Shown piece after piece: positions 27,282 through 35,075 of a stretch of 64,000 bases of DNA. Source of the DNA: Paenibacillus sp. DCT19. GTDB lineage: Bacteria > Bacillota > Bacilli > Paenibacillales > Paenibacillaceae. The notes beneath the pieces are model-generated. The model was not told where the DNA came from. It ran no database searches and was given only the letters and a program-made list of their open reading frames with translations. Position numbers and translations under genes: made by a program. The stretch's first letter is position 1. Each line of letters opens with the position of its first letter. The DNA lies in the NCBI RefSeq assembly GCF_003268635.1, contig NZ_CP029639.1, forward strand, positions 2,429,501-2,493,500. The letters are read 5' to 3'.

Positions 27282-27310
27282 TTGTTTTTGAATGATACAA
27301 ATTGTATCAT
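27282..27310 (+). promoter_or_regulatory. Promoter with embedded 19-bp palindromic operator
   Basis: TTGTTT (27282-27287) and TATCAT (27305-27310) are 17 bp apart. Between and over the -10 lies ATGATACAAATTGTATCAT (27292-27310), a perfect 19-bp palindrome. A dimeric repressor bound there would cover the -10. The start site would give a 44-nt leader to the small gene at 27361. The regulator is unknown. Confidence 0.5.
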
Positions 27311-27360
27311 ATATCGTGGGAAATAACAGAAAAGAAGAACAAAGGTAGGAGGAGAGGAAG

Positions 27361-27519
27361 ATGGAAAAAGAAACAACTAGAACTAACACCCAAGTTAAGC
27401 GTTGTTGGCAAACACCAAAAGTGGATGTGTTGGAGGTGCAGCATACTCTCAGTGGTGGGGGAATCTGGCATTATGTATGGGATGGAGAGTTTTGGAAACT
27501 TGAATTACTCACAAGCTGA
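27361..27519 (+). CDS. Putative lasso-peptide-like (paeninodin-type) RiPP precursor
   Basis: This 52-residue product starts at an ATG 8 nt after a perfect AGGAGG. Residues 16-34 (WQTPKVDVLEVQHTLSGGG) have the paeninodin-type lasso leader pattern: aromatic, Pro three residues on, VL-acidic-V, then Thr two residues before the expected core and a Gly-rich core start. The C-terminal part (residues 35-52) is Trp-rich and ends in Ser, as in paeninodin-type precursors. No Asp/Glu sits at core position 7-9 when counted from Ser31; Asp41 would be residue 9 or 8 only if the core began at Gly33 or Gly34. No cyclase, protease or transporter gene is adjacent. A one-base shift near the G5 run would give a different tail ending at 27556. 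The precursor call is inference. Confidence 0.5.
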   Translation: MEKETTRTNTQVKRCWQTPKVDVLEVQHTLSGGGIWHYVWDGEFWKLELLTS

Positions 27520-27574
27520 TACTTACTGGCTATTGTATGACAAGACCTATAAATAGACTAATGAGGTGAAAACC

Positions 27575-28803
27575 ATGTTCATGAGTAGGTACTCTAAATG
27601 GATCTCTCGATCGTTCATGCTGTGCTTCTTTTCGATCTTACTTAGTATTGTATACGCTGGAACCTCCTACGCATTGGAGCAGGAAGGGGCACCCTCCGCC
27701 GCACAAGAAAATAATGCCCAACCACCAGCCATTATTCATGGGAAAATAACGGATCGAGAAGGCTACAGTGTCCCTCATGCCAAAGTGGATTATGAGCTTT
27801 ATTATCGGGGGGATACGACCAAACACAGTCTGGTCGCTGATGAAAACGGAAACTATCGCTTTGAAGCAGTCGTTGAAGATTATACAGACCTAACATTGTA
27901 CGTTGAAGCAGAAGGCTTCATTACCTATGCGTCCTATAGGCAATATCAAAATTATACGTTAAGTCCTGGGGATGAAGTGAACATCAATGTAAGCCTATAT
28001 GAGCCCTCTACCATTGTGGGCACGGTAACAGATCCAGCGGGTCAACCGATTCCTGGTGCAGCAATTAAAGTGACGAGTATAACAGATCGTGTAATACAGA
28101 CGGATGCAAACGGAAGGTATACAGTTACGGGTATCGATTACGATTATAACCCAACATTGCCATCTGGATCGATAGTCAGGATCATCTCCCTTATCTACAA
28201 GACCGTCTAGGCATTGATGCAGGTCAAACGTTACGTATTGATGTTGTACTGGAGAATGCTGCTCATGTCAGAGGACAGATTGTTGATGCTAGTGGGAATC
28301 CGGTAGCAGGAGTCAAAGTTAGTGGGTACACGGAACGAGCTACAACCGATGTTCAAGGCTATTATTTACTTAAACGGATTCCAACAGGTTCAATTACAAT
28401 CGTTGCGGAAGCAGCTGGTTACCCCAAACATAGCAAATTAGCAAATTTAACTCCGGGAGATCATAATAGCGTGGATTTTGTATTACGCGTAAACCAAGAT
28501 ATTCAGCCTCCAGTAACCAAATATCGACTGGTGCCATTAACGGAAACGATTAATGGGAAGCTTTATATTGTTGGGTTTACGTTTAGACTGCAAGCCACGG
28601 ATGAAGCTAACGGATCAGGCGTAAAAATAACACAATATCGTTACAATGGCGGAGAATGGATGACCTATAATGGCCCTGTTAAATTTTATGCAAATGACGT
28701 AAAGTTGGTGGAATACTACAGCACGGATGTGGCAGGGAATACAGAGAAAATGAACAAAATGGACTTTGTAAAGGGTATCTTTGAAGGAGCTGGCTCGTAC
28801 TAA
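27575..28803 (+). CDS. Secreted carboxypeptidase-regulatory-like domain protein, one-base frameshift
   Basis: A Sec signal peptide (FMLCFFSILLSIVYAGTSYA, then cleavage near ALEQ) leads into three CarboxypepD-regulatory-like beta-sandwich repeats: IIHGKITDREGYSVPHAKV, STIVGTVTDPAGQPIPGAAI and AHVRGQIVDASGNPVAGVKV. The C-terminal domain (DEANGSGVKITQYRYNGGEW and YYSTDVAGNTEK) is the OmpL47-type Ig-like fold. The frame breaks near 28167-28171 (one base missing); corrected length is about 409 residues. It is probably an extracellular or wall-associated binding protein of unknown ligand. GAGGTGA precedes the ATG, and it lies 55 bp after the RiPP-like gene without a terminator between. Confidence 0.75.
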
Positions 28804-29096: not shown

Positions 29097-29647
29097 ATGA
29101 GCAAATCAATTCAGACAGGAAACGCGGTCATTGAAGCAATTCAAAATCGTCGGACGGTCAAAAAGTTCAAAAAAGACGCGGTTCCTACAGACAAAATTAT
29201 TGAATTATTAGATGCAGCTGTATGGGCTCCTAATCACAAACTGCGCGAACCTTGGCGGTTCCTTCTGTTCACTGGGGATGGCCGCAAAAAGCTAGCTCAA
29301 GCTATTGATGCTGAGATGGGAGAGGATAATAAATTCTCAGCGAATATTAAGCAGGTGCCTGCGATTATGCTGGTTGTACTGGAAGAGGATCCACGCCAAA
29401 ACATTTGGGATGAGGATTTTGCTGCGGTTAGCGCACTCGTGCAGAACTTTTTGCTTGCAGCCTGGAGTGAAGAGATTGGGACATTCTGGGTAACGAAGCC
29501 ATTTCTATATGCCCCAAATTCCGTAAACCGCTCGGCATCGAAGCGGGCGAAAAGATTATTGGCATGATTTATATGGGATATCCGGATGTTATTCCTTCAG
29601 CTAAAGAGCGTACAGCAGCCAAAGACAAGCTGACTCTGTTTGAATAA
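29097..29647 (+). CDS. Nitroreductase family protein, one-base frameshift in this sequence
   Basis: This FMN-dependent nitroreductase-fold protein of about 183 residues begins with AIQNRRTVKKFKKDAVP, containing the RRT/S cofactor motif. LLDAAVWAPNHKLREPWRF follows, with the conserved APN and PWRF. The C-terminal half (GIEAGEKIIGMIYMGYPD) is in another frame. Adding one A at 29516-29518 joins them and gives the normal family length. AGGAGG precedes the ATG. The physiological substrate cannot be told from sequence. Confidence 0.82.
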
Positions 29648-34146: not shown

Positions 34147-35075
34147 GTGAGTATTTTGATTGATAAAAATACAAAAGTCATTACGCAAGGCATTACGGGT
34201 TCAACGGGAATGTTCCACACGAAGGGCGCATTGGACTACGGAACCCAGATGGTAGGCGGTGTTACTCCGGGTAAAGGCGGAACCAATGTTGACATCACGC
34301 TGGAAGACGGTTCAGTAGTCAGCCTTCCGGTATTCAACACGGTGCAGGAAGCGAAGGAAGCAACTGGCGCAACAGCGAGCGTCATTTATGTTCCCCAGCA
34401 TTCGCAGCAGATTCCATCATGGAGGCTGTTGACGCAGAGTTGGATCTCGTTATCTGTATCACAGAAGGTATTCCTGTGTTAGATATGGTTAAGGTAGATC
34501 GTTTTATGGAGGGGAAAGATACCGTCCTGATCGGCCCTAACTGTCCAGGTGTCATTACGCCAGGCGAATGTAAAATCGGAATTATGCCAGGGTACATCCA
34601 TATGCCAGGACATGTTGGTGTCGTTTCCCGTAGTGGAACATTGACGTATGAAGCTGTACATCAATTGACTACTCGTGGTATCGGACAATCCTCTGCTGTC
34701 GGAATCGGTGGAGACCCTGTTAAGGGCTCTGAGTTCATTGATATTCTCAAGCGGTTCAATGAAGATCCGCAGACACACGCTGTAATCATGATTGGTGAAA
34801 TCGGTGGTACAGCGGAAGAGGATGCGGCAGAATGGGTGGCGGCTAACATGACCAAACCTGTTGTAGGGTTCATTGGTGGTGTTACAGCTCCTCCAGGCAA
34901 ACGTATGGGTCACGCTGGCGCAATCATTTCCGGTGGTAAAGGTACGGCTAAGGAAAAAATTGCGAAGCTTGAATCTTGCGGTATCAAGGTTGCGCCTACG
35001 CCAGCCGAGATGGGATCTACGCTTGTCAGTGTGCTTGAAGAACGCGGTATTCTGAATTTGTGCACGACACATTAA
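34147..35075 (+). CDS. sucD: Succinyl-CoA synthetase, alpha subunit, one-base frameshift in this sequence
   Basis: The CoA-binding N-terminal domain ([28 protein letters not shown]) is followed, in another frame, by [20 protein letters not shown]. The phosphohistidine loop [18 protein letters not shown] comes next. The break is at the C4 run 34393-34396; one extra C restores [13 protein letters not shown] and a 309-residue subunit of normal size. Since sucC is intact, a read error is more likely than inactivation. The start is GTG 34147. A strong terminator follows. Confidence 0.93.

Follow-up and report, generated by a model that had tools for sequence, protein, structure and literature searches.

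The 64,000-nucleotide stretch of Paenibacillus sp. DCT19 DNA analyzed here (the window) contains a 52-residue gene that resembles a lasso peptide precursor and has no modifying enzyme beside it. In RiPP discovery, a precursor is usually sought next to its enzymes. The question raised by this locus is what such a gene encodes and how, and for what use, its product might be matured. The features that bear on this question are as follows.

27292..27310, no strand assigned: palindrome ATGATACAAATTGTATCAT, agreeing at 16/16 fixed positions; presumed operator common to the lasso cluster
27347..27352, plus strand: ribosome-binding site AGGAGG, 8 nt 5' of the ATG, read from the sequence
27361..27519, plus strand: precursor peptide gene, 52 residues, stop codon included; 52-codon open reading frame with a family match
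27361..27450, plus strand: paeninodin-type leader, residues 1-30; NF033524 match, with the cut after Thr29-Leu30 presumed by analogy
27406..27417, plus strand: WxxP motif (W16, P19), the RRE-binding signature of paeninodin-type leaders; from the alignment, with the specificity given in the available text of PMC13381572
27451..27516, plus strand: core, residues 31-52, Trp-rich, no acid at 7-9; pN/pS 0.12 for the W-to-S part
27466..27507, plus strand: predicted beta-hairpin, strands at residues 36-40 and 45-49; AlphaFold2 model, alignment A4
27514..27516, plus strand: C-terminal Ser52, the residue phosphorylated by paeninodin-type HprK-like kinases (available text of PMC9266682); Ser is last in 48/48 family members
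27566..28803, plus strand: secreted partner gene, here in two frames; intact orthologues in other genomes
28507..28800, plus strand: the partner's C-terminal OmpL47-type domain; profile A5, E = 7.7e-40

The product of the window gene is MEKETTRTNTQVKRCWQTPKVDVLEVQHTLSGGGIWHYVWDGEFWKLELLTS. The initial annotation had described a 52-residue gene behind AGGAGG with a paeninodin-type leader, and both parts of this description were borne out. The open reading frame spans 27361-27519 with the AGGAGG at 27347-27352, and the NCBIfam profile NF033524 (paeninodin family lasso peptide) matched residues 13-35 with E = 2.5e-5. At 23.9 bits, this match falls below the curated cut-off of 27 bits, which is passed by 27 of the 31 congeneric orthologues. 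A Pfam search of the peptide found no family, and an Rfam scan over the window gave no match. Within the leader, Thr29 takes the place of the lasso-leader Thr(-2), and Trp16 falls at -15, the spacing of W-15 in PbaA; according to the same available text (PMC13381572), paeninodin RREs favor Trp over Tyr at -15. The WxxP and the Thr at -2 of a paeninodin-type leader are therefore both present. A double-glycine (C39-type) leader, raised by the GG in congeneric cores, was set aside because GG is missing in several distant members.

If the leader is removed at the usual site, after Thr29-Leu30, the remaining core is SGGGIWHYVWDGEFWKLELLTS. Its acids stand at positions 11, 13, and 18 and, as had been pointed out, none stands at 7-9. 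It had likewise been recorded correctly that no modifying enzyme lies next door, since the neighbors include no cyclase, peptidase, or kinase; the cluster with B1, B2, and cyclase lies about 0.38 Mb away in the same genome (G000). These observations confirm that the gene is a precursor with a paeninodin-type lasso leader and without the ring acid. Across the family, Asp or Glu occurs at core positions 7-9 in 3 of 48 members. The window peptide probably cannot form a lasso knot.

The initial annotation had also suggested that a ring might close on Asp41. This residue is Asp in the window peptide, Asn in one relative (L011), and Gly throughout one clade, and on these grounds it was rejected as the ring acid. 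Relatives have Q, E, D, S, K, or G at the position between the glycines. Asn, Asp, or Gly at this position fits a beta-turn, and we infer that Asp/Asn/Gly-Gly at 41-42 is such a turn. The distant cores have W-x-F-V-x3-G-D-F-W-K-R in common. In an AlphaFold2 model built on 25 sequences (pLDDT 77 for residues 31-40 and 89 for residues 41-50, mean 70.4, pTM 0.30), the Trp-rich core is predicted to be a beta-hairpin.

At E < 1e-12, orthologues were found in 31 of 75 congeneric genomes, a result well beyond chance. These 31 peptides form clades whose identity to the window peptide ranges from 44 to 100%. In a profile search of 388 genomes of the family, drawn evenly from a larger group, full-length members appeared in 15 more genomes, spread over four other genera, and these loci held 17 further peptides, three of which are in G313. 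Trp(-15), Thr(-2), and the C-terminal Ser are each present in 48/48 members and P-12 in 47/48 (L102 is the sole exception), counts that are descriptive rather than an independent test because the search profiles reward those residues. Pairwise comparison (465 pairs) gave pS 0.60 and pN 0.07 (ratio 0.12) for the core, taken from its first Trp to its final Ser, and pS 0.46 and pN 0.14 (ratio 0.31) for the leader part from W..P to T. Purifying selection is thus stronger on the Trp-rich core than on the leader, so that selection acts on the core too and not on the leader alone.

A single-sequence protein search with the peptide found one relative, and an alignment-based search found 18. NCBI names several of the relatives "paeninodin family lasso peptide." A tblastn search of plasmids gave no match, and none of the titles and abstracts listed in searches of an open-access library describes the cassette, the operator, or the scattered precursors. 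The family is conserved and overlooked and is not a relic. The earlier suggestion of a relic or of a sequencing error in the peptide is contradicted by a frame kept in 31 genomes and a strongly conserved core. The G5 run suspected of such an error lies at 27457-27461 and not near 27467. The peptide itself shows no sign of a frame error: its closest relatives keep the frame and differ by one extra Gly codon. Compared with G035, the window genome has frame changes in the partner gene, the nitroreductase gene, a gene near 34395, and the lasso kinase. The stretches broken here and intact in G035 are 27566-28803, 29097-29640, and the one near 34395 in the window, together with L038:7512-8506. So many breaks in a short span suggest indel errors in the G000 assembly.

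The peptide gene and the gene of a secreted partner together form a two-gene unit. In the genus, the peptide gene lies between yraN and the nitroreductase gene at 8/8 loci compared, with the partner directly 3' of it. In the G035 orthologue, the partner consists of three CarboxypepD_reg stretches followed by the C-terminal OmpL47-type domain. This secreted-looking CarboxypepD_reg protein is present in 30 of 75 congeneric genomes, all 30 of which also carry the peptide, and the gap between the matched parts of the two is 49-79 nt at 30/30 congeneric loci. The peptide in G033 has a shortened start region and no partner. At the distant loci, the partner adjoins the peptide in 17/17 cases, either 5' or 3' of it, and the partner gene adjoins 47/48 peptides overall.

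The partners vary at their N termini, with CarboxypepD_reg in L071, L072, and L074; Hcp (PF05638) in L073, L075-L080, L101, L103, and L104 among those scanned; SLH in L100; and LamG in L102. The C-terminal OmpL47-type domain is common to all of them, and NF047446 scored above its cut-off in 5 of 6 scanned. With a profile of this domain, we recovered 30 congeneric and 18 other strong copies (E < 1e-18), set apart from weak copies in large proteins. Of these 48 strong copies, 47 adjoin a peptide (the exception is G308:C1:4833177), and the 44 congeneric genomes that lack the peptide held none. The domain was modeled as a beta-sandwich (pLDDT 96.2), and a PDB fold search with it returned nothing at E <= 0.001 (best E 0.039). 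Peptide and partner distances correlated over 17 pairs (r 0.42), a signal that vanished when the set was reduced to 13 (r 0.05).

Some side observations concern these partners. Hcp-domain proteins (PF05638) are often paired around the peptide (L073, L075-L080, L101, L103-L106). The export-signal-like N termini of the Hcp-domain partners were judged by eye and occur in Gram-positive genomes. At L107 (G308:C1:4833177), a partner-type Hcp pair with a strong C-terminal domain has no recognizable peptide between its genes; the peptide has perhaps been lost.

An alignment of the regions upstream of 12 congeneric cassettes contained one conserved block, a 19-bp palindrome, ATGATACAnnnTGTATCAT. It agrees at 16/16 positions both at the window cassette and at the lasso cluster of the same genome, where it lies 111 nt 5' of the first gene and occupies the spacer between TTGACA and TAGAGT. 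In 800 kb of this genome sampled elsewhere, no palindrome reached at least 14/16 and four reached 13. At a score of at least 13/16, the palindrome precedes 29 of 31 congeneric cassettes; it falls short in G033 and G057, where the genes appear damaged as well. Of the 17 distant cassettes, 13 have it at this score and one more at 12, with failures at L077, L100, and L102. For some loci in this census (including L079, L103, L104, and L106), the start of the first gene was set manually at an internal start codon. The failures include L077 and L102 of G313, and the best palindrome at the G184 cassette scored only 11/16. Among 1,204 control stretches, 0 reached 13 and 0.17% reached 12.

The palindrome also accompanies lasso clusters and other precursors. 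It scored at least 14/16 at 9 of 10 congeneric lasso clusters read (L156 scored only 12). Among the four genomes read outside the genus, the palindrome lies close to the first genes at 12-14/16 in G308 and G076, and it is missing at the one cluster read in each of G083 and G184. A second orphan precursor has 12-14/16 in the window genome and in 13/13 chosen relatives (1.1-kb stretches), and a third precursor class (L108-L112) has the palindrome upstream in 5/5. These positions lead us to infer that the palindrome is an operator common to the cassette and the lasso cluster. An Rrf2-type gene beside the second orphan precursor of G000 was considered as the regulator and set aside, as it had no copy in the 1.1-kb stretches of the 13 relatives. 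In G308, a separate 16/16 palindrome lies about 0.66 kb 5' of a second lasso cyclase gene (L115:13617).

The initial annotation had left room for a stray precursor modified by distant enzymes. A genome-wide search for lasso genes found one lasso B2 above the cut-off in G000, within the cluster L038 about 0.38 Mb from the window gene. This cluster encodes a sulfotransferase, cyclase, precursor, HprK-like kinase, B1 (recognized by eye), B2, nucleotidyltransferase, and ABC transporter. Its own precursor has the core AGKGYRQIDW..., with the ring acid at 9. Distant enzymes are thus favored, as the one lasso cluster carries the same palindrome; the peptide is not stray, as it is paired with a secreted partner. 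With a leader-family match established and with RRE, protease, and cyclase genes present in the genome, the findings that would have spoken against a lasso-type precursor here did not arise.

Lasso B2 was present in 46/46 peptide-bearing genomes compared to 210/342 others among the 388; every genome found to carry the peptide thus also has B2. Within the genus, B2 is near-universal (72/75), so that co-occurrence there is uninformative. Outside the genus, the counts were 15/15 peptide genomes versus 169/298 (P = 6e-4), a value that is overstated because only four genera are involved. All 15 distant peptide genomes also hold paeninodin precursors above the cut-off. Other orphan precursors were seen along the way. 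A second one in the window genome (L002/L039; G000:C1:3625173-3625307, minus strand) has a normal ring acid, the core AGYGYRQIDWIEEHDADLYDPTS, a 13/16 palindrome upstream, and no lasso enzymes near it, and similar second precursors exist in other congeneric genomes. A third orphan class (L108-L112, five genomes, genus g2) has a paeninodin leader and a core like KFFPPIHPPGGGGPGGGGGEDCPPELDS that ends in Ser.

Published work bears on maturation without a ring. The HprK-like kinase PadeK modifies the C-terminal Ser of the linear precursor (available text of PMC9266682), and RREs help both the peptidase and the kinase (available text of PMC10368454). A linear substrate with the right leader and a suitable last Ser could therefore, in principle, be matured without the cyclase. 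Together with the shared palindrome, this makes processing in trans the best reading. We hold, with moderate confidence, that the cassette is coregulated with the remote lasso cluster, whose enzymes turn the peptide in trans into a hairpin that is linear, probably phosphorylated, and active together with the secreted protein. Under this model, the palindromic operator would switch on the cassette and the paeninodin-type cluster together. The cluster RRE (B1) would bind the leader through Trp-15, Pro-12, and Thr-2 and hand the peptide to the HprK-like kinase, which would phosphorylate the C-terminal Ser, and to B2, the peptidase that would cut after Thr-x. Since no Asp or Glu stands at core positions 7-9, the cyclase would make no normal lasso ring. 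The product would be a linear Trp-rich beta-hairpin of about 22 residues, which the ABC transporter of the cluster may export. Outside the cell, the hairpin would dock on the C-terminal domain of the partner; this is the weakest step of the model, as it goes beyond the pairing itself. Speaking against the model are the broken frames of the kinase and partner genes in G000, the cassettes and clusters that have no palindrome (in G184, G313, and G083), the loss of P-12 in L102, and the low pTM of the predicted hairpin.

Other explanations were weighed against this model. The peptide could still be a true lasso with an unusual ring, if B2 cuts elsewhere or if a ring larger than 9 closes on the acid of G-[DE]-F-W (core about 11-16). 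The lasso-type leader, the lasso cyclase in the genome, the acid after the turn in most members, and the fact that a later cut could make Asp41 residue 9 all speak for such a ring. However, the 3/48 acids at 7-9 are at differing sites, position 41 varies to Asn and Gly as described above, the turn acid is missing in L100 and L101 and shifted in L078, and the first core Trp ranges from core position 4 to 9 relative to Thr-2. Published rings close at 7-9 (available text of PMC10368454), and we regard this explanation as improbable. It would be a closer call, though still unlikely in our view, that the leader likeness reflects ancestry only and that the peptide, free of RiPP enzymes, is a small chaperone, regulator, or subunit of the secreted partner. 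The partner pairing does outweigh any link to the lasso cluster, and the core is better conserved than the leader. Yet W-15, T-2, and the C-terminal Ser persist in 48/48 members even though two clades diverge at many other leader sites, cassette and cluster have the palindrome in common, and the peptide was seen only in genomes with B2.

A decoy or regulator of the lasso pathway, whose leader titrates B1 and whose core is a mere carrier, would account for a leader and presumed switch that are the same as those of the lasso cluster. Such a decoy would have no need of a conserved core, whereas here the core has a pN/pS of 0.12 and comes with a dedicated secreted partner, and we give this idea very little credence. 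Equally remote to us is an LPP-like linear phosphorylated peptide that LPP enzymes encoded at another place in the genome would mature. LPPs have been described as linear counterparts of phosphorylated lasso peptides whose leaders are similar, but in the available text of PMC13381572 their leaders have YxxP, where all 48 members here have W, and they are phosphorylated at Ser3, where the window core has Gly.

We return to maturation in trans by the lasso cluster. A broader version of it, on which we are evenly divided, is that one lasso cluster serves as a maturation hub for several dispersed precursor classes with a common leader type and operator, one class being the hairpin ligand of a secreted family, that is, a RiPP used as a subunit or tag of a surface protein. 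If so, lasso enzymes act on several unlinked substrates, and some NCBI-labeled lasso peptide precursors are not lassos. The biological role of paeninodin-type systems, called unknown in the available text of PMC13381572, would become testable through a defined protein partner. The links used here, namely, the leader, the shared palindrome, and the secreted partner, are ones that cluster-based mining does not use. New in this work are the pairing with a secreted OmpL47-type-domain protein and the palindrome common to the cassette and the lasso cluster.

Compared to paeninodin-type lasso peptides (PadeA; NF033524), the window family has the same WxxP leader, Trp -15, Thr -2, and C-terminal Ser. 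It differs in having no acid at 7-9 and no adjoining enzymes, and it adds a conserved Trp-rich hairpin-like core and a secreted partner gene. LPPs (Popov et al. 2026; available text of PMC13381572), with an RRE-bound leader, kinase modification, and no macrolactam, may be likened to the window family. They have a YxxP leader, a Ser3 site, and their own cluster with RRE, kinase, and SpI-like peptidase, whereas the window family has WxxP, a C-terminal Ser, and no enzymes of its own; the window peptide has neither YxxP nor Ser3, and no SpI-like peptidase, RRE, or kinase is among the immediate neighbors of its gene. With OmpL47-type proteins (NF047446), the partners share a C-terminal domain that scores above the cut-off in the five of six noted above, and the peptide-linked version, distinct at E < 1e-18 from the copies in large proteins, closes the protein C terminus. 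Hcp-like proteins (PF05638) match the N-terminal domain of many distant partners, which differ in having export-signal-like N-terminal segments (by eye) and in lying in the peptide operon. Tryptophan-zipper hairpins are designed Trp-rich strand-turn-strand peptides with Asn-Gly or Asp-Gly at the turn. The predicted Trp-rich strand-turn-strand core of the window peptide resembles them, with the difference that it is natural and carries a leader.
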